DNA of 51,834 bases from a virus: positions 1 through 51,834 of IMG/VR virus record IMGVR_UViG_3300035130_000145. One strand, 5' to 3'. The notes beneath the pieces are model-generated. The model was not told the origin of the DNA and made no database searches. It saw only the letters and a list, made by a program, of their open reading frames with translations. Of the stretch, positions 1-51,834 are shown piece by piece; position 1 is the first letter of the stretch; the number at the start of each line of letters is the position of its first letter. The translations under genes and the position numbers were made by a program.

Positions 1-16
1 GTACGCATATAAACAC
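1..16. repeat. terminal redundancy, copy 1 (circular closure)
   Basis: The 16 bases GTACGCATATAAACAC that open the window are repeated exactly as its last 16 bases (51819-51834). This is what a circular contig cut open with a short overlap looks like. The genome is therefore probably circular or circularly permuted, and genes near the two ends are neighbours. Confidence 0.9.
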
Positions 17-4130: not shown

Positions 4131-4339
4131 GCTTCCTCCTTGCCCCGTTGGGGCGGTTGATTAGTTTCTGAAAACATTAACTTAAAATTCAATTCCAATT
4201 GCCCATAAATCACAACGCCCCATTCGTAAGCCTGGCACTTGTTTTTTTTCGCATGCGCGATCGCTTCCATGGCGGTTTCAAAACATTTTATCCGACCGTT
4301 AAGAATTTTTAGTCGTGGGTTTATTGTTGAGTATTTCAC
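4127..4339 (-). CDS. hypothetical protein (70 aa)
   Basis: Read from GTG 4339, which overlaps the methyltransferase stop as GTGA and has AAGGAG ten bases upstream. An ATG-initiated version to 4384 would run into the methyltransferase. Residues 12-35 contain an amphipathic helix (FETAMEAIAHAKKNKC), and the rest is strand-like. No family recognised. Confidence 0.55.
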   Translation of the reverse strand: MKYSTINPRLKILNGRIKCFETAMEAIAHAKKNKCQAYEWGVVIYGQLELNFKLMFSETNQPPQRGKEEA

Positions 4340-4980
4340 ATCGCAAGCACTCCTTGCGCAAGACGCTGCATAGCTGACCGACAATGCGCCTCTTCTATTT
4401 CAATACCAACAGCTCGATACCCAAGCGCCTTTGCCGCAACCAGTGTTGTCCCAGATCCAGCGAACGGATCCAGGATTACACCGCGATGGCAACAGGATAT
4501 TAAGTCCATCATTAGAGACACGGGCTTTTCCATTGGATGCCATCTTGATTTTCTTCGTCCTACGCAGCCCGCTACAGCCAGATGTCGCAACACGGAGCCT
4601 CTTCGCCTTCCAAAGAAACCTCTTCCGATTACATATATCTCCTCATGGTTTGGCTTCCATGGCAACGAAAGATCCCCCATGCCAACATGTTCACCTTTCT
4701 CCCATATAAGTAAGTGTCGAGTATTTATCGGGCGAGCAATTTTCCATGTTCCAAACACAAGAGCAGGGCGTTCACCCCATGCGTCAAGCAGTGTGTCACG
4801 GGCAACGGTATCCAGATCGCCTTTTATTGAGCAGTCGCCTAACCGTCCTTTCATTCCACTGCTAAACCCTATCCCATATGGCGGGTCGGTAACCAGTACG
4901 TCAGCGCATATCGAGTCAAACACATCCCGGAAATCGCAATTAAAAATTGTAATCCCTGATTCCTCGTAATAGGGTTTCAC
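4336..4980 (-). CDS. beta-class DNA methyltransferase (adenine-N6 or cytosine-N4)
   Basis: A 214-aa SAM-dependent DNA methyltransferase. DPPYGIGF sits at about 32-39 and the DPFAGSGTT SAM motif at about 171-179, giving the DPPY-first order of the beta class. The HPMEKPVSL segment before motif I is also typical. The start is GTG 4980, overlapping the upstream TGA (GTGA) and following GGAGATAGAG. No cognate nuclease is present. It is the second of three methyltransferases in 3.3 kb and is likely anti-restriction or regulatory. Confidence 0.85.
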   Translation of the reverse strand: MKPYYEESGITIFNCDFRDVFDSICADVLVTDPPYGIGFSSGMKGRLGDCSIKGDLDTVARDTLLDAWGERPALVFGTWKIARPINTRHLLIWEKGEHVGMGDLSLPWKPNHEEIYVIGRGFFGRRRGSVLRHLAVAGCVGRRKSRWHPMEKPVSLMMDLISCCHRGVILDPFAGSGTTLVAAKALGYRAVGIEIEEAHCRSAMQRLAQGVLAM

Positions 4981-5162
4981 TCCTCTATCTCCTCTCCGTG
5001 CGCATTCCAGCACGCTTTAACATTGCCGACATACCAATGACAGCATGATGCATCCGTATTGAACGGTCTGATTTCGCATCCTGCAAAGTCTTTGAGAGTG
5101 CAACGGCAACTGTGCCAACTGTACCAAGCGCATGCGCCGCAGAATTTACAGACACATCCCAT
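4977..5162 (-). CDS. Cys-rich zinc-knuckle protein (61 aa)
   Basis: Begins MGCVCKFCGACAWYSWHSCRC, with nine cysteines in the first 41 residues and a His, suggesting one or two zinc sites. The start lies inside the last codons of the C5 methyltransferase gene with GGAGG ten bases upstream. The stop overlaps the next methyltransferase start. A competing frame at 4985-5179 lacks these features. Being wedged between two methyltransferases, it may assist one of them (guess). Confidence 0.6.
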   Translation of the reverse strand: MGCVCKFCGACAWYSWHSCRCTLKDFAGCEIRPFNTDASCCHWYVGNVKACWNAHGEEIEE

Positions 5163-5868
5163 CGCTCAAAACCTCCCATGCGAGCACAACCACTCGTGGA
5201 ACTTGCCCATTTCCAATGGCTTTAAGTCGGTCCATGACATGGGCCACCCCATGGCGGCCTCGTTTTGCTCTGGAGATGGACTCCAACCATTCTCTTCGTA
5301 GCAGGTAACTCCGTTTCGATAGCGTCTCGAGCTCTTCGAAAACCCGAACCCTCTTTTTCCCATTGAAGCCGTTGGCGTTGGCCACAATGAACATTCGTCG
5401 TCGCATGTGTGGCGCACCCATTGAGCACGCCGAAAACACACCCCATCTTGCATCAAACCCCATTGAGGCCAGGTCTCCGAGAACTCGTCCGAGTCCGCGA
5501 GTAGTGAGCATTGGGGAGTTCTCCACAAGGACGTATCGGGGTTGTACTTCGCGAACCACCCGAGCCATCTCGAACCAGAGCGAAGATTTCGACCCTTCGA
5601 TCCCGTCTCCTCGGCCGGCTGCACTGATGTCTTGGCACGGGAACCCGCCTGTGACGACATCGACGTGTCCGCGCCACGGCCTGCCTTCGAATGTTTTGAT
5701 ATCGTCCCAAATAGGAAATGGTTCGAGGCATCCATCTCTTTGCCTCGAAAGTAGTACTTCCCTGCAGTAGGGATCAATCTCGACAGCGCAGACGGTACGC
5801 CATCCGAGCAGGATGGATCCCAAGATGCCACCTCCCCCGCCTGCAAATAATGCCAGCTCATTCAGCAC
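5146..5868 (-). CDS. DNA (cytosine-5) methyltransferase
   Basis: A 240-aa C5 methyltransferase that methylates cytosine within a short, unknown DNA target. Motif I is LALFAGGGGG (about 5-14). The catalytic Pro-Cys lies in GGFPCQDIS (Cys about 78). The ENS motif is near 115 and motif X-like AIGNGQVP is near the C-terminus. It is shorter than typical bacterial enzymes, with a reduced target-recognition region between residues ~150 and 200. The chosen start is GTG 5868 with GAGGG upstream, overlapping the previous stop; a TTG at 5898 is less likely. All core motifs look intact. Confidence 0.85.
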   Translation of the reverse strand: MLNELALFAGGGGGILGSILLGWRTVCAVEIDPYCREVLLSRQRDGCLEPFPIWDDIKTFEGRPWRGHVDVVTGGFPCQDISAAGRGDGIEGSKSSLWFEMARVVREVQPRYVLVENSPMLTTRGLGRVLGDLASMGFDARWGVFSACSMGAPHMRRRMFIVANANGFNGKKRVRVFEELETLSKRSYLLRREWLESISRAKRGRHGVAHVMDRLKAIGNGQVPRVVVLAWEVLSDGMCL

Positions 5869-6133
5869 CTTTTGACCCTCGCTGTATGATTGTTTCAATC
5901 GCCAGAATCAGCCTGGCCACCGCGTGCGCCCAGTGGGGCTCACCGGTATCCTCATCGCTTCCATGTTGCGCCAGATGAGCGAGTGCATGTTTGATGTGTT
6001 CTTGCGCGCTGGCTTCGTCTTCGGCGTGCTTCTCGTCTCCATGGATCAGTAATTGCAAGACACCTGTGCAGGCCCTCCAGTCGTGTTCCAGGTAGTAATA
6101 AATCCTCCCCCACTGGTGATTGGTGATAATCAT
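5858..6133 (-). CDS. small helical protein, possibly dATP/dGTP diphosphohydrolase N-domain-like
   Basis: A 91-aa protein from ATG 6133 (ATGA overlap with the HTH gene). It has a His/Glu-rich helical core, EHIKHALAHLAQHG followed by DTGEPHWAHAVARLIL. This resembles the short N-terminal domain annotated DUF5664/dGTP_diPhyd_N in phages, which usually shows a GxPHLAHALxxLL pattern. The match is by eye only. It could be a small nucleotide hydrolase or an orphan helical domain. Confidence 0.55.
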   Translation of the reverse strand: MIITNHQWGRIYYYLEHDWRACTGVLQLLIHGDEKHAEDEASAQEHIKHALAHLAQHGSDEDTGEPHWAHAVARLILAIETIIQRGSKGAE

Positions 6134-6582
6134 TGGAACGAGCCCCCCTGCTTCACACTCCCCCATCCCATGGCGTACTCAATCGTCGGCTGATCGTCCG
6201 CTTCGTCATACCCAAGGAAGCACTTCAGGCAGAGCTTCTGCCCTTTCCATTTCTCGAGCTTCCCCCTCGCTCCGCACTCGTCGCATCGGCCGTACCCGGT
6301 TCTTCGGTATTCATGGATGTAGCCCTCGACTATCGCGCGCTTTATTCCGAACTCTTTGGCAATCTCCATCGGTGTCGCACCGAGATCGGCAAGTCTTCCA
6401 GCAGCGATTACATTGTCCCTGTGGTTTGTCTTCTGGGAGTACCCGCTGTTGTGCAGGTAAACGTTCACCGTGCTCTTGGCGATGCCGAGTATCTCCATGA
6501 TCTCTTCGCGGCTCTTGCCCTGTCGGAACAGCCTTATCGTTTCTTTCATGCGATAGTGCTTCATTTCTTTTGAACCACTCAT
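6130..6582 (-). CDS. DNA-binding protein with two HTH segments and a zinc ribbon
   Basis: A 150-aa protein. Residues ~12-47 form a resolvase/LuxR-like HTH (RLFRQGKSREEIMEILGIAK). A second HTH-like segment (LADLGATPMEIAKEFGIKRA) is near 62-85. CDEC and CLKC pairs (about 99-120) form a probable zinc ribbon. The start overlaps the upstream stop as TAATG. It is one of the few regulator candidates in a genome with no evident CI repressor, and may control the lysis/methylation arm (inference). Confidence 0.65.
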   Translation of the reverse strand: MSGSKEMKHYRMKETIRLFRQGKSREEIMEILGIAKSTVNVYLHNSGYSQKTNHRDNVIAAGRLADLGATPMEIAKEFGIKRAIVEGYIHEYRRTGYGRCDECGARGKLEKWKGQKLCLKCFLGYDEADDQPTIEYAMGWGSVKQGGSFQ

Positions 6583-11712: not shown

Positions 11713-11972
11713 AACAAAACATCAAAAAAACCAAATAAATACGAGGATATACTGAAAATATTTTCAGGGATGGTCCATGGCCTCAGAACGTCAATCTCGC
11801 TCCAAAACTACATATTTTCTGTCAGTCTTGATCGTTTTCTGAATATCTGGCAATTCCTGGAAATTTGCATTCTTTTCGAAACGATACATGCTTATCATCT
11901 GCGAAACAAATCGAAGACTTGGCGGGGAATACAGGTGGCACTGGTGCGCCAAATCAACAGGAAAGGTGCGAG

Positions 11973-13082
11973 ATGAGTAAGCATGTAAGACAGTCAAAAC
12001 CCGCCAGGCATGGCAATCAATGGCAAATCAGATGGACCGATGAAACGGGACATAGGCGAAGCGAGACGTGGAGCAACTACGAGGACGCCGAGCACGCCTT
12101 AGTGACTCACAAACTCCACGTGATGGAGATACGCCGTGGTCTCCGAGTAAGACCACCCAAGAGCCGTGGCTTTGAGGAACTGTGCCGGCAGTGGCTCGAG
12201 ATACGCACAGTCAAAAAGCGCACTCCAAAGGACGACACATCAATTATCAGGGTGCATCTGCGGCCGACCTTCGGCCATTTGGATATCGACCAAATCACTG
12301 CTGAACGCATCGATATTTTTTCGGCGGCGCTTTCAGCGAAGCGTGCACCACAGACGGTGAGAAACATTCTAATTCTTCTGGGGGCCATGTTGAGACAGGC
12401 GGTAGAGTGGGGGTGGCTCTTGGGCGTTCCTAAGATTCATCTTCCACGAGTTCGACTATTTCCTGCTGACTGCAAATGGCTACGCACTATCGATGAGCGA
12501 GATCAATTCCTGCGCGCGGCGCAAAATCACGCATTGCAGGTTGTCTACCCTATGTACGCCACCGCTGTGCACACCGGAATGCGCGCCGGCGAGCTCGCGG
12601 GTTTACAGTGGCAAGATATAGACTTCGAGCGTCGCCTTATTACCGTTCAAAGGTCATATGGTGGCCCTACAAAAAGTGGTGATATCCGACGCATACCAAT
12701 TGGTGACGGCCTACTTCCCATTCTGCGGGAGTGGCGGCTGGCCTGCGGCAACCGGCTGGCGTTTCCGAATACTGCCGGTCAGATGTGGGATCCGCGCGGG
12801 CGTATTTTCAAGACAGTATTCCAAAAAGTGCTTCAGCTCGGCGGATTCCCGCCGAAACATATCACCTTCCATTCGTTGAGGCACACGTTCGCGAGCTATT
12901 TCTTGATGAATGGTGGCGACTTAGAAGGCCTACGACGGATTCTTGGTCACAAAGACTCGAAGACAACCCAGCGGTATGCCCATTGGCGGCCCGATGCCTT
13001 TGACAAGTACTGGGGAATCATGGGGCCAACGAAGTGCCACGACGGCGAGGTGATCGAGATGCGCAAGAAGGAGGAGGCATGA
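11973..13082 (+). CDS. int: tyrosine-family integrase
   Basis: A 369-aa site-specific recombinase. An N-terminal arm/AP2-like region begins HGNQWQIRWTDETGHRR. A SAM-like core-binding domain covers about 65-160. The catalytic domain has Arg 204 (HTGMRAGE), Lys about 235, His 300 and Arg 303 (HSLRHTFA), His 326 (LGHKD) and nucleophile Tyr about 335 (TQRYAHW). ATG 11973 is chosen because AAAGGTGCGAG precedes it and the N-terminal domain begins there; 36 further upstream codons look unconserved. It adjoins attP. Confidence 0.93.
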   Translation: MSKHVRQSKPARHGNQWQIRWTDETGHRRSETWSNYEDAEHALVTHKLHVMEIRRGLRVRPPKSRGFEELCRQWLEIRTVKKRTPKDDTSIIRVHLRPTFGHLDIDQITAERIDIFSAALSAKRAPQTVRNILILLGAMLRQAVEWGWLLGVPKIHLPRVRLFPADCKWLRTIDERDQFLRAAQNHALQVVYPMYATAVHTGMRAGELAGLQWQDIDFERRLITVQRSYGGPTKSGDIRRIPIGDGLLPILREWRLACGNRLAFPNTAGQMWDPRGRIFKTVFQKVLQLGGFPPKHITFHSLRHTFASYFLMNGGDLEGLRRILGHKDSKTTQRYAHWRPDAFDKYWGIMGPTKCHDGEVIEMRKKEEA

Positions 13083-21656: not shown

Positions 21657-21881
21657 ATGAGCATACCGGATCCAATTGAGATAATGAAACGAAGACAAGA
21701 AGAATCTATAGATAGAATTGTGATCATAGATGGAATTGAATACTACCCATGCGATGATTGCGGGAAAGCGACGCCACTCGATGACATCGTATGCATGGAC
21801 CCGTTAGGTGTATCAGGCGGCATCTGTGGAGATTGCTTGGATAGATGGGTAGCAGAAAGGGAAAAAAATGAGACCGGATAA
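21657..21881 (+). CDS. zinc-finger-like protein (74 aa)
   Basis: The ATG at 21657 has GAAGGTGA upstream; an upstream GTG/ATG at 21573-21576 would add about 28 residues coupled to the previous stop. CDDCGK and CGDC pairs (about 35-64) around a GVSGG loop suggest one zinc site, like the small HNH-less treble-clef proteins in phages. Function unknown. Confidence 0.55.
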   Translation: MSIPDPIEIMKRRQEESIDRIVIIDGIEYYPCDDCGKATPLDDIVCMDPLGVSGGICGDCLDRWVAEREKNETG

Positions 21882-22167
21882 GCCAGGGCATTGGTGGTAC
21901 AAAACATCATATGGGCCGGAAAAGATAGCTTATATTGCGAGCGGGTTTTCTTTCGAACTGTGTGTCATTGATAACCAGCATCCCGTTTGTATTTCTGTAT
22001 TCGAATGTTCGTCAGAGTTCGGAGAATGGCTCGCCCAGGCACATCCACCGAAGAAGATTGGGAACAGAGTCAATGAGGCCAGAGTGCTAAATACGGATGA
22101 TGGACTGGTCATTCCCTATGAAGACGTAAAAGAGTTCCTGCTAAATGGAGATTATAATGAAGAATAG
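21868..22167 (+). CDS. RPDKPG-type small protein, paralogue 1 (99 aa)
   Basis: Begins MRPDKPGHWWYKTSYGPEKIAYI and contains EFGEWLAQAHPPKKIGN and the ending IPYEDVKEFLLNG. The next gene shares the order RPDKPG.W, W..AHPPKK and YEDVKE(F/Y)LLNG, so the two arose by tandem duplication. It is probably a small beta domain related to the GWYWA family. Role unknown. Confidence 0.6.
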   Translation: MRPDKPGHWWYKTSYGPEKIAYIASGFSFELCVIDNQHPVCISVFECSSEFGEWLAQAHPPKKIGNRVNEARVLNTDDGLVIPYEDVKEFLLNGDYNEE

Positions 22168-22486
22168 ACCAGATAAACCAGGATGCTACTGGTGGGAAGA
22201 CGACTGCGGACGATATCACGTCGCAGAGTTTGACGAGGAAATGAAGACCCTTGATTCTTGCGATACTGGTTTTATTAGTCCAGAAAAGTTTGAAGAATCG
22301 GTCTGTTTTATTCGATGGGTAAGCCCGGCGCACCCTCCTAAAAAGGTGGATCGTTATATTATGGATACCGTATCTGATGGTGGCGGGTTAACGACTGAGA
22401 GCGCCATGGAGAAATATCAGACTGGCGATTGGGTTCGCTATGAAGACGTCAAAGAGTACCTGCTGAATGGTGGTGAGAATGACTGA
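22157..22486 (+). CDS. RPDKPG-type small protein, paralogue 2 (109 aa)
   Basis: Starts MKNRPDKPGCYWWEDDCGRYHV within the last codons of paralogue 1. Shared blocks are RWVSPAHPPKKVDR and VRYEDVKEYLLNGG. It carries an insertion (MDTVSDGGGLTTESAMEKYQTG) that its neighbour lacks. The two may act as a pair or be undergoing diversification. Confidence 0.6.
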   Translation: MKNRPDKPGCYWWEDDCGRYHVAEFDEEMKTLDSCDTGFISPEKFEESVCFIRWVSPAHPPKKVDRYIMDTVSDGGGLTTESAMEKYQTGDWVRYEDVKEYLLNGGEND

Positions 22487-46666: not shown

Positions 46667-46926
46667 GCGGACCTCACCAGGCTTGTCCCGCTGCCGTTGA
46701 GTCTGGTATCGAGCCAATCCAAGCGGAGATAGAGCTTGTCGAGCTCGACGTTTAGCCGCGATATATCCTTCTTCGTCACCGTCTGCCGGGTCTGGCCTGT
46801 ATCAATCGTGTAGCTCTGGAGATTTCCAGTAGACAGCGCAAGAATAGCGTCCTCGATGGCCTCGATGGCCGTTTTGGTCTTATCGATCCGAGATTGGAGC
46901 CATGTTGCGGTTATTGCTGATGCCAT
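46663..46926 (-). CDS. gpW-like head-tail joining protein
   Basis: An 87-aa protein matching lambda gpW in size, place and style: a helix (WLQSRIDKTKTAIEAIEDAILALS) followed by a beta hairpin (SYTIDTGQTRQTVTKKDI) and a second helix (SRLNVELDKLYLRLDWL). Its ATG lies inside an operator half-site (TGTCTCA at 46926), and no ordinary ribosome site precedes it (TATGAGAC). It is the first gene after the inserted accessory cassette. Confidence 0.78.
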   Translation of the reverse strand: MASAITATWLQSRIDKTKTAIEAIEDAILALSTGNLQSYTIDTGQTRQTVTKKDISRLNVELDKLYLRLDWLDTRLNGSGTSLVRSA

Positions 46927-47066
46927 GTCTCATAGCCCAAAATTGAGACAAAAATGTCTCTCTGAGACAAGTATGTCTCATTAGTGTCTCACTGGTCAAG
47001 CGGGAATGCATAAAAATGTCTCACTTGCATAATTATATAATAAATACAGCTATTTAGATTGTCTCA
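46926..47066. promoter_or_regulatory. operator cluster: TGAGACA/TGTCTCA sites, two palindromes, candidate minus promoter
   Basis: Eight copies of the 7-mer TGTCTCA or its complement (one copy, at 46955, ends in T) lie at 46926, 46944, 46955, 46963, 46974, 46985, 47017 and 47060. Two full palindromes TGAGACA-N4-TGTCTCW (46944-46961 and 46963-46980) lie 19 bp apart. A minus-strand promoter, TTGACC (46999-46994), 18-bp spacer and CATACT (46975-46970), overlaps the second palindrome, so a bound repressor would block transcription of the gpW/portal genes. Confidence 0.8.
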
Positions 47067-47097
47067 AAAAAAGATTTTGCCTGATTCACTTTTTTAC

Positions 47098-47126
47098 TGG
47101 ACACATCCTGATGTGTCCGCTATAGT
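47098..47126 (+). promoter_or_regulatory. promoter with operator palindrome in its spacer (accessory cassette)
   Basis: A -35-like TGGACA (47098-47103), exactly 17 bp and TATAGT (47121-47126) form a good sigma70 promoter pointing into the small plus-strand genes. Its spacer is the perfect palindrome GGACACATC-ct-GATGTGTCC (47099-47118), so a dimeric repressor could shut it off. The palindrome differs from the TGTCTCA operators next to it, implying a second regulator. Confidence 0.65.
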
Positions 47127-47173
47127 AGGTACAGATGGTCGCAATGGAGCGGCCATGAGCAAAGGAGAGAAAG

Positions 47174-47335
47174 ATGAAAACCGGATACGAAGCAATTGAA
47201 GCCAAGAAAAACGATAACAGGGTAATCCTCTGCAAATACGCCGATCCTACTGAGGACGCGCGAGAGGACATCTCGGTAGAGGATGCTGAGGAAATCGCCA
47301 GCGAAGACCCCAGTCTCATCTACGTTGCTGAGTAA
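47174..47335 (+). CDS. small acidic phage protein (53 aa)
   Basis: An ORF of 53 codons after AAAGGAGAGAAAG. The product MKTGYEAIEAKKNDNRVILC has its conserved-looking part in the C-terminal half (ISVEDAEEIASEDPSLIYV), a small phage domain of unknown role. Its TAA touches the first repeated leader. Confidence 0.65.
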   Translation: MKTGYEAIEAKKNDNRVILCKYADPTEDAREDISVEDAEEIASEDPSLIYVAE

Positions 47336-47408
47336 CCGACCCCCACCCTGCCCGCCAGCAATGACGGGTGGGAGTGGCGGCCGATTCGGCCAGAAAAGGA
47401 GTAAGAAG
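47334..47408 (+). repeat. repeated hairpin leader, copy A
   Basis: A 75-base intergenic RNA module starting exactly at the previous gene's stop codon. It has a C-rich arm CCGACCCCCACCCTG, a hairpin CCCGCCA-gcaa-TGACGGG region, and a second hairpin GGCCG-att-CGGCC (47379-47391), then AGAAAAGGAGTAA (ribosome site) seven bases before ATG 47409. Copy B at 47654-47727 is nearly identical outside the loops. Confidence 0.75.
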
Positions 47409-47654
47409 ATGAAAAAGTATTACAAAGAAGTGTGCGGTGTCGATCCAAAATACCCCGAATGGGGATACAGCACAGAAGGAAGACTCTTTTCCTTTGAAAA
47501 AGAGTCACGAAAATGGAAATTGTTCTCCTACACTGGAGGCTGGCGCGGTTGTCCGGCACCCGACTGCACGATACTTCCTGTTGCAGCGCAAGAGGCAATC
47601 GATTTTCAGCGACGCAGACCGGCGCCTAGATTCAGATTTAAATGTGATCGCTGA
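47409..47654 (+). CDS. hypothetical accessory protein (81 aa)
   Basis: Starts MKKYYKEVCGVDPKYPEWGYS behind leader copy A. The KLFSYTGGWRGCPAPDC segment suggests a small strand-rich fold, and the C-terminus is very basic (FQRRRPAPRFRFKCDR). Unknown. Transcribed with six other small genes from the 47.1-kb promoter, counter to the late operon. Confidence 0.6.
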   Translation: MKKYYKEVCGVDPKYPEWGYSTEGRLFSFEKESRKWKLFSYTGGWRGCPAPDCTILPVAAQEAIDFQRRRPAPRFRFKCDR

Positions 47655-47727
47655 ACCGACCCCCACCCTGCTCGCCACTATGTGGCGGGCGGGAGTGGAG
47701 GCCGATTCGGCCAGAAAAGGAGTAAAA
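47654..47727 (+). repeat. repeated hairpin leader, copy B
   Basis: Like copy A it begins at the preceding stop codon (TGA 47652-47654) and ends before ATG 47728. Its first hairpin is GCTCGCCAC-tat-GTGGCGGGC (with one G-U pair), where copy A has a different sequence pairing the same way. The second hairpin GGCCG-att-CGGCC (47700-47712) and AGAAAAGGAGTAA are kept. Keeping structure with sequence change argues for RNA function. Confidence 0.75.
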
Positions 47728-47979
47728 ATGAAGATTAGAACAGGAACCAAAGCCGCCACCGGCTTTATCGTTAAAGTTGGAAATGAAAACAAGTTTCGAC
47801 CGTCTCCGAATGGAGACATAATCCGATTCACAGATACATCTTGGAACAACAGGGGCGTCAGTGGATATGCCCCGGCAATAGGGGCGAAATTGATCACAAG
47901 CGGGACTCCAGAAAGTCTCGCGACATGGGAAGTATCTTGCTATCCGCTAGATATCGATACTATGGGCAGAAAGGAGTAA
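47728..47979 (+). CDS. hypothetical accessory protein (83 aa)
   Basis: Starts MKIRTGTKAATGFIVKVGNE behind leader B, spacing five bases. Strand pattern with a polar loop region (FRPSPNGDIIRFTDTSWNNRG) and SGYAPAIGAKLITSGTPES, perhaps a small beta domain. No family recognised. Confidence 0.6.
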   Translation: MKIRTGTKAATGFIVKVGNENKFRPSPNGDIIRFTDTSWNNRGVSGYAPAIGAKLITSGTPESLATWEVSCYPLDIDTMGRKE

Positions 47980-47983
47980 GAGA

Positions 47984-48166
47984 ATGGATTTTTTTTATAA
48001 GACAGACGGAGAAAGCGGGATAATTCAGGCATCCTCGATTGAGGATGCTCGCGATAAAATGATTATCGAGGCCGACCTTACGCCGGCGGCAATCCAGGAT
48101 GGAGCATGGGGCTGGATTGAGGATTTCAATGGCGAACGAATATACGTCGCCGAAGAAAACATATAG
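47984..48166 (+). CDS. hypothetical accessory protein (60 aa)
   Basis: ATG 47984 follows GCAGAAAGGAGTAAGAG, the same ribosome-site cassette as the leader copies but without the GC hairpins. Sequence MDFFYKTDGESGIIQASSIED with an acidic helix (EDARDKMIIEADLTPAAIQDG) and WGWIEDFNGERIYVAEEN; likely alpha/beta. Unknown. Confidence 0.55.
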   Translation: MDFFYKTDGESGIIQASSIEDARDKMIIEADLTPAAIQDGAWGWIEDFNGERIYVAEENI

Positions 48167-48200
48167 TGGCCGATTATCAGCCAAGCAAAGGAGTGTAAAG

Positions 48201-48689
48201 ATGGGAGAATTCTTAGATCAAGTGATGGCCGGAGGGCCGTCGCTGATGGATTTGAATGAAAAACAACAGCGTGTCGTAAGTTGCTTGAAAGAAGATCCGT
48301 CAGGCTGGGCTTGGCAATTGTCCAGAGAGAAAATATTAAATCCATTACGAGAGGCGGTGAAAGAAGAACTTCTTTCAGATTCCTCTTGTAAATTGGATTG
48401 TGCATTTCTAACCTACGATATGTTGATTGAGTCGTGCGCCAGCGAAGACGACTCGGAGTCCTGGGCCCGAAAATTAATTGCATGGATGAGTCCAGCCCTT
48501 CCTCAATTACATTTCGGGCCAAGGGGATGGCATGCGGCTTTCCGACATGCTGTGGTATCTCAAGCTAAGTGGTTGCGAGAGCATGAAAAAAACCAAAAAG
48601 ATGTTAGGATTAACAGTCCAAGCCTTCCTCCTTGGGAAAACAAGGCATGCCTTGTACTGGCGGAGTTGGTGGAGGCGGAGACAATATGA
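48201..48689 (+). CDS. helical accessory protein (162 aa)
   Basis: The largest gene of the cassette, from ATG 48201. Its leader carries a hairpin variant GGCcGAT-t-ATCaGCC and AAAGGAG. The protein is mostly helical (EKQQRVVSCLKEDPSGWAWQLSREK, SCKLDCAFLTYDMLIES, WARKLIAWMSPALPQLHFGPRGWHAAFRH). No enzymatic motif; could be an anti-defence or exclusion protein. Stop coupled to the 25-aa ORF. Confidence 0.6.
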   Translation: MGEFLDQVMAGGPSLMDLNEKQQRVVSCLKEDPSGWAWQLSREKILNPLREAVKEELLSDSSCKLDCAFLTYDMLIESCASEDDSESWARKLIAWMSPALPQLHFGPRGWHAAFRHAVVSQAKWLREHEKNQKDVRINSPSLPPWENKACLVLAELVEAETI

Positions 48690-48763
48690 CAGACTACGTC
48701 CGAATGGAGAATCATCACAGGAATCACAGGTTGCCGTGGTCGCGGCCAAGGGGTGAGAGATGA
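48686..48763 (+). CDS. tiny coupled ORF (25 aa)
   Basis: ATG 48686 overlaps the previous TGA (ATGA) and its TGA overlaps the next start (48760). The product MTDYVRMENHHRNHRLPWSR... is basic. The perfect tiling with neighbours suggests it is translated, at least as a coupling bridge. No function inferred. Confidence 0.45.
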   Translation: MTDYVRMENHHRNHRLPWSRPRGER

Positions 48764-49038
48764 GCACCGACGCGGCCGTCACGGCCGCTCGCCTACTACT
48801 CGAAGCGAACGTCCCGAGCGGCATCACCCAAGAGCGGATCGACCGGCTCGCCGAGGTGATAAAGGGAATCACCGAAGATGAGCTTTCACGGCTCAGAATC
48901 GAGACATGTGCCCACGGGGGAGGGGACCCGGAGCGATACGGGAAACGGAGGAAGCGCGCCGGGCGGGCTGTCAAGATAGGGACCGCTGGCGTACATCCTG
49001 GTGAGAAAGGCGTCCAGATCTGGGCGGTATGGGCTTAG
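48760..49038 (+). CDS. hypothetical accessory protein (92 aa), end overlaps terminase
   Basis: Starts MSTDAAVTAARLLLEANVPSG; the N-terminal two-thirds is helical (ERIDRLAEVIKGITEDEL). The Arg/Lys/Gly-rich C-terminus (YGKRRKRAGRAVKIGTAGVH) may bind nucleic acid. It ends four bases inside the oppositely oriented large terminase gene, marking the cassette boundary. Confidence 0.5.
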   Translation: MSTDAAVTAARLLLEANVPSGITQERIDRLAEVIKGITEDELSRLRIETCAHGGGDPERYGKRRKRAGRAVKIGTAGVHPGEKGVQIWAVWA

Positions 49039-51818: not shown

Positions 51819-51834
51819 GTACGCATATAAACAC
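51819..51834. repeat. terminal redundancy, copy 2
   Basis: Exact copy of the first 16 bases, closing the circle. Confidence 0.9.

Follow-up and report, generated by a model that had tools for sequence, protein, structure and literature searches.

A two-hairpin leader lies at the joints between exchanged small genes in arrays of five phages

The window, the whole stretch of 51,834 nucleotides (nt) analysed here and identical with IMG/VR virus record IMGVR_UViG_3300035130_000145, carries an array of seven small genes, reversed relative to its surroundings, between two genes that normally adjoin, those for the large terminase (TerL) and a gpW-type protein. In this array and in those of four other phages, copies of a leader element stand between small open reading frames (ORFs), and the genes behind the leader are replaced one by one from phage to phage. 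We consider it likely that the array is built of cassettes, each consisting of a leader and a small ORF, and that the leader serves early accessory genes as a portable joint for expression and crossover that has spread by homologous recombination. For the collections searched, both the leader and the gene families are novel; systems of this kind, in which genes are shuffled via common regulatory repeats, have precedents.

Results

A structured leader joins neighbouring genes

A preliminary description of the window had pointed to duplicated RNA leaders within the array. They proved to be real: the copies of about 72 nt are 91–96% alike and fold far better than shuffled sequences (Table 2). Copy 1 consists of an AAYCGACC box overlapping the stop codon of the preceding gene, hairpin 1, in which an A is bulged, hairpin 2 (GGCCGATTCGGCC) and AAAAGGAG. 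We aligned 12 copies from five phages over 68 nt, and the resulting fold model comprises two hairpins, of 15 base pairs (bp) and 5 bp, separated by one unpaired base; the longer hairpin carries a conserved bulged A. Under this model 95% of the cells were paired, compared with 34–49% when the model was slid, and four pairs showed changes on both sides. The apex of hairpin 1 occurs as two alleles with little sequence in common, both of which maintain pairing.

In 12 of 14 copies, the leader either follows directly on the stop codon of the preceding gene or completes that codon with its own first bases, and its 3′ end, GGAG or a near variant, lies within a few bases of the following start codon. 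With a stop codon at one end and a ribosome-binding site at the other, the element is thus an intercistronic joint and not merely a leader. No plus-strand promoter-like site was found in the two internal leaders of the window. An intrinsic terminator was also considered and ruled out, as no U-run follows the hairpins.

Among 2.9 million viral contigs the leader was present in only four other records (G001 to G004; Table 1), and three scans returned the same four. Strong covariance-model matches were confined to the array of each record and to the gene strand, and the weaker antisense matches represent the same palindromes. The leader had no match in Rfam, phage records or plasmid records, and a pattern search did not find it in 85,000 species genomes.

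Table 1. Order of genes and leaders in the five arrays. Numbers are protein lengths in amino acids (aa); L, full leader; s, short leader.
Genome	Record	Array order
G000	window phage	53-L-81-L-83-60-s-162-25-92
G001	3300037297_000175	53-L-122-L-60-s-162-25-92
G002	3300042731_005494	53-L-81-L-(MNTKKTW fused in frame to 60)-s-162-25-92
G003	3300037126_000044	79aa-L-55aa-53-L-122-L-83-60-s-162-(hairpin 2 only)-60aa-89aa
G004	3300031652_000006	92aa-(weak L)-57aa-L-97aa(53 family)-L-192aa-(shortened L)-100aa-L-81aa(MNTEKTW)-57aa-63aa-88aa

Genes behind the leader are exchanged between unrelated genomic settings

The first leader of the window is followed by an 81-aa gene, as in G002, and the corresponding place in G001 and G003 is taken by a 122-aa gene. 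Behind the next leader stands an 83-aa gene, a 60-aa gene or the MNTKKTW gene, the last of which also occurs in G004. The 60-aa gene has its ribosome-binding site within the end of the 83-aa gene in the window, and in G001 it has a full leader instead. In G002 the MNTKKTW and 60-aa genes form an in-frame fusion, apparently a natural chimera from recombination within the array.

Three phages (window, G001 and G002) carry the array between TerL and gpW. In G003 and G004, it sits after tail genes and not at this junction. The G003 array adjoins a gene for a PD-(D/E)XK nuclease, and the G004 array lies among genes for DNA polymerase, helicase, Cas4-like, DUF669 and AAA proteins on the same strand. 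The head genes of the window have no recognisable relative in G003, and in G004 the head genes are about 20–30% identical to those of the window, TerL at 22% and portal at 21%. Despite the unrelated head module, the 162-aa and 83-aa proteins of G003 are about 92–94% identical to their counterparts in the window.

Individual exchange points were visible in several comparisons. The 60-aa gene of G001 shows 0 DNA differences from that of G003 and 14 from that of the window, whereas its 162-aa gene shows 2 differences from that of the window and 45 from that of G003; identity changes from G003-like to window-like in the region of the short leader. The 162-aa gene of G003 enters hairpin 2 of a leader at the common octamer GTGGAGGC, and its product, which ends in ...EADSARKGV, has gained the tail DSARKGV. 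A 53-aa gene is also present in two further phage records, L043 and L047, in which the covariance model detected no leader. The L043 protein is 96% identical to that of G001, and the 3′ end of its gene is window-like through GCTGAGTAACCGACC, the last bases of which are the start of the leader; the sequence beyond is unrelated. L043 additionally contains many dispersed AATGATTTCAA repeats (positions 4980–6420), and TGTCGCGAC-N5-GTCGCGACA, a perfect palindrome, precedes the 53-aa gene there.

In G002, TerL has been replaced (about 47% identity) and the overlapping 92-aa ORF is nearly unchanged, which places the array also at a boundary of head-module recombination.

The array genes form an insertion at the terminase–gpW junction

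The preliminary description had listed seven plus-strand ORFs of 53, 81, 83, 60, 162, 25 and 92 aa between a gpA-type terminase and gpW/portal, and we found lengths, strand and flanks as described, the 87-aa 'gpW' being named by size and synteny only (no Pfam match at E≤1e-4). Coordinates are collected in Table 2. Nonsynonymous changes (dN) are rarer than synonymous ones (dS) in the 53-, 81-, 83-, 60- and 162-aa genes among relatives, and since changes favour synonymous sites, we regard these five as real, selected proteins; the 92-aa ORF shows too few changes.

Table 2. Features of the array region, in positions of the window (pI, isoelectric point; UTR, untranslated region).
Feature	Position	Strand	Remarks
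Portal gene (Phage_portal_2), start	46666		
TGTCTCA/TGAGACA cluster, 7 exact copies	46926..47066		between gpW (−) and array (+)
Sigma70-like array promoter TGGACA-N17-TATAGT	47098..47126	+	10/12 consensus match, best of the region; kept in G001 and G002
20-bp palindromic operator-like site GGACACATCCTGATGTGTCC	47099..47118		overlaps promoter; chance expectation 0
5′-UTR hairpin ATGGTCGC-AATGGA-GCGGCCAT	47135..47156	+	adjoins promoter
53-aa acidic protein, pI 4.2	47174..47335	+	family in 7 phage records; AlphaFold pLDDT 90
Leader copy 1	47334..47408	+	z −2.8 and −5.2 against shuffles for the two copies
81-aa protein	47409..47654	+	present in G002 too; dN/dS about 0.15
Leader copy 2	47654..47727	+	sequence likeness and folding
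83-aa protein	47728..47979	+	present in G003 too; 94% identity
60-aa acidic protein, pI 4.05	47984..48166	+	dN<dS
Short leader without hairpin 1, TGGCCGATTATCAGCCAAGCAAAGGAG	48164..48200	+	identity switch site in G001
162-aa protein	48201..48689	+	dN/dS about 0.12–0.18 against G002 and G003
25-aa ORF	48686..48763	+	weakly supported
92-aa ORF, 63% GC	48760..49038	+	conserved in G001 and G002; 4-bp overlap with TerL stop
TerL gene (Pfam GpA_ATPase/GpA_nuclease), end	49035		

Related phages with a clean junction do exist, as had been suggested for comparison: TerL and gpW are separated by 32 bp in AeroV_348 and by 66 bp in Vibrio 1.030.O. In Acinetobacter phage Scuro the junction is a geneless stretch of 345 bp, and in Shewanella phage SppYZU01 it holds one additional gene of 228 aa on the same strand (L039 5259–5945). 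The Scuro gap and the extra SppYZU01 gene suggest that the junction takes insertions more than once and may be a recurrent insertion site. The view of the array as an inserted accessory cassette thus holds, as the array is absent from related junctions and the same genes occur at other loci in phages with unrelated head modules.

The array has its own predicted promoter and a putative operator

The promoter that the preliminary description had given the array was located as a sigma70-like sequence, predicted by consensus match only, and the claim of private palindromic operators stood in part. The operator-like site GGACACATCCTGATGTGTCC, which overlaps the promoter, is one of only three near-perfect palindromes of such size in the window, and its counterpart in G001 and G002 is a perfect 20-bp palindrome, GGACACATCCGGATGTGTCC. 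No second copy was found anywhere in the phage, even when three mismatches were allowed. The array promoter is probably repressible. A different hairpin occupies the 5′-UTR position beside the promoter in other arrays.

The other presumed operators, a cluster of TGTCTCA sites, may belong to the head operon. Seven sites lie within 141 bp, the first at the gpW start codon (Poisson probability about 4e-16, for a motif picked after the fact whose count in the whole window is about as expected), and the four plus-strand copies are spaced by 11, 32 and 43 bp, distances that come close to whole helical turns. Because the cluster begins at the gpW start and contains two minus-strand promoter-like sites, it may serve the head operon and not the array, by driving or regulating head genes that the array cuts off from those for the terminase.

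The first gene of each array is preceded by a promoter, a stem-loop and a ribosome-binding site, an arrangement that recurs in L043 and L047 and is duplicated within L047 and G004. In L047 (3050–3175 and 4128–4240), a promoter-rich stretch, the CGGGATAACAAATCCCG stem-loop and a ribosome-binding site stand before two unrelated genes, and one of the genes behind this duplicate, which resembles the promoter early stem-loop (PeSL) elements discussed below, is the member of the 53-aa family. In G004 (L030, about 11870–11980 and 12300–12350), the same promoter-like sequence and a GCTGC-loop-GCAGC stem-loop precede two different genes.

The array products match no recognised function

As had been noted beforehand, the products have no recognised function: Pfam, PHROGs and PADLOC yielded nothing usable, and the PADLOC defence models matched neither six array proteins nor the 122-aa protein. 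Searches of phage records by tblastn with the 53-, 92- and 162-aa proteins returned nothing, and the 53-aa family was not found in 85,000 species genomes. The AlphaFold model of the 162-aa protein is of low confidence (pLDDT 42). That of the 53-aa protein has no match among solved structures and matches one uncultured marine virus protein. The strong acidity of the 53- and 60-aa proteins fits a role as nucleic-acid mimic or inhibitor, without showing it.

The phage and its relatives

The window phage encodes a tyrosine integrase, DnaB helicase, RecE-like exonuclease, lambda-type TerL and portal, S49 protease, gpE-type capsid and baseplate J. From the gene content, including the integrase, we take it to be temperate, and from baseplate J to have a contractile tail. 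The two ends of the window (1–16 and 51819–51834) have 16 bases in common, GTACGCATATAAACAC, and the assembly of a close relative begins at a different point, suggesting that the genome is probably circular or permuted. Two DNA methyltransferase genes (4336–4980 and 5146–5868, of N4/N6 type and C5 type) may allow restriction evasion, and a pair of adjacent, overlapping genes, each of about 100 aa (21868–22167 and 22157–22486), has the look of a tandem duplication, with 84% identity across 49 nt. In G001, a lipoprotein-like protein (L031 13516–14103) carries a long (D/S)T repeat of a style known from Myxococcota and relatives, possibly a hint at the host.

Discussion

Our findings show that a structured element, placed from stop codon to start codon, accompanies small genes that differ from phage to phage and that sit at differing genomic locations. 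We propose that the hairpins of the leader would insulate and stabilise both neighbouring messages, and that its strong ribosome-binding site would allow any ORF behind it to be expressed. Since the same leader precedes unrelated ORFs, it could also act as a homology patch of about 70 bases for the exchange of single genes by ordinary, error-tolerant homologous recombination. This homology may be used by the recombination functions of the phages themselves, such as the RecE-like exonuclease of the window phage, and exchange would take place among phages of the same gene pool. The array would be driven by its own sigma70-like, probably repressible promoter with a 5′ hairpin. Its genes most likely encode early-expressed, host-directed accessory proteins; early expression is suggested by the location of the G004 array, which shares its strand with the DNA polymerase, helicase and nuclease genes around it, and by that of the G003 array beside a PD-(D/E)XK nuclease. 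We see about even chances that the set consists mainly of early-expressed counter-defence or host take-over proteins.

In favour of this proposal, 6 of 8 homology-block ends in window coordinates lie at joints (≤5 nt), against 14% expected (P about 2e-4), a statistic that is inflated because replacement of a whole gene behind a common leader must end at the leader. Other observations weigh against it. The leader is carried by only five genomes, three of which are close relatives in the array region. The exchange that created the MNTKKTW and 60-aa fusion in G002 (L032 6268–6663) is not at a leader. Moreover, the deeply conserved 5′ box AAYCGACC is unaccounted for by hairpins and ribosome-binding site.

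The leader might instead be chiefly a regulatory RNA (for example an attenuator, or a put-like antiterminator, which would modify RNA polymerase), with gene swapping as a by-product of its repetition. Its two stem-loops, one unpaired base apart in about 70 nt, resemble the put RNA of phage HK022 (PMC9378689), and both the bulged A and the 5′ box are conserved. The 5′ box can also pair alternatively with the 5′ arm of hairpin 2, which would make a possible switch, but this pairing is the weaker one, containing a constant mismatch and lacking compensatory support, whereas hairpin 2 has one double change. Moreover, Rfam gave no match, and put elements lie near early promoters, two per genome, whereas the leaders described here precede internal genes. 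We think a chiefly regulatory leader unlikely. It is improbable that the leader is an RNA or single-stranded DNA device with two conformations that switches cassettes and forms a preferred exchange substrate, a phage counterpart of the integron with an RNA leader in place of an integrase site. Integron-like cassettes proper, in which a site-specific recombinase would act on the leader, would agree with the imperfect hairpin and its bulged base at the joints, the overlap with the stop codon, the single orientation within arrays and the tyrosine integrase of the phage. Yet a GTTRRRY or RYYYAAC core site was present in 0 of 12 leaders, which rules out the leader as attC; exchange points vary (behind GGAG, within hairpin 2 or at the short leader), and the proteins scanned included no other recognisable recombinase. 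We give this explanation very little credence.

In the preliminary description, the array was a moron that may be active in lysogens and silenced in the lytic cycle by antisense late transcription. The integrase, the separate promoter with its operator-like palindrome and a convergent 4-bp overlap with TerL, with no strong terminator between, are all compatible with such a moron. However, the position antisense to the terminase is found in only three of the five arrays and not kept in G003 and G004, where DNA-metabolism neighbours point to early expression, and the operator lacks a second copy in the phage. This part of the description did not hold up well, and we judge it unlikely. That the array genes belong to the packaging or head module would fit their TerL–gpW position in three phages, but they are missing from related modules. 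As they are present at other loci in phages with unrelated head modules, we conclude that they are not packaging genes; not all relatives carry them, in agreement with the earlier view that they are no core packaging or structural genes, and the contrary has next to no likelihood.

The joint proposed here bears on the question of how small accessory genes enter and leave phage genomes while operons stay intact. It offers a compact, well-bounded case: five genomes, some of them from phages with unrelated virions, display the sequence of the joint, the genes swapped and the points of exchange. A stop codon followed by AAYCGACC and two hairpins could serve as a search key for more accessory genes by guilt by association. 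It also makes the idea that a shared regulatory patch drives shuffling testable beyond T4-like phages and mycobacteriophages.

Comparison with known systems

Like lambdoid morons, the array comprises extra genes with their own promoter (a consensus match only, conserved in three phages), inserted between adjacent virion genes and absent from the junction in relatives. Lambdoid morons usually consist of one or a few genes with a terminator and have no common leader; no plus-strand terminator-like site was found 3′ of the array. Integron cassettes share with the array one ORF per cassette and a structured element (attC) at the joint, but the leaders lack core sites and their exchange points are variable. 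HK022 put RNA, with its two stem-loops in about 70 nt (PMC9378689), is matched by the leader in architecture. It differs in being an antiterminator, which binds RNA polymerase and suppresses termination, behind early promoters in two copies; the leader has no Rfam match and would be a candidate antiterminator at most.

One precedent is provided by the PeSL elements of T4-like phages, reportedly described by Arbiol in 2010 and by Comeau in 2014. PeSLs, cited in PMC4503421, are reported to be short regulatory hairpin elements among small early accessory genes and to promote modular shuffling. PeSLs coincide with points of gene shuffling, and so do the leaders. The promoter, stem-loop and ribosome-binding site before the first gene of each array correspond to the T4 arrangement. 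PeSLs carry promoters, however, whereas the internal leader consists of two hairpins and a ribosome-binding site, has no recognised promoter and begins at a stop codon.

A close parallel is provided by the SAS and ESAS repeats of cluster K mycobacteriophages, which lie just upstream of the starts of unrelated small non-structural genes and contain a Shine-Dalgarno core (PMC3203893). About half of the SAS have an upstream inverted repeat, and SAS are absent from the host and from almost all other phages (PMC3203893). The two families have no common sequence, and the 13-bp SAS GGGATAGGAGCCC beside the start codon does not occur in the leader alignment. SAS are scattered across half of the genome and do not have to adjoin a stop codon, whereas the leader repeats are confined to one movable array, where gene exchange at them is directly visible.

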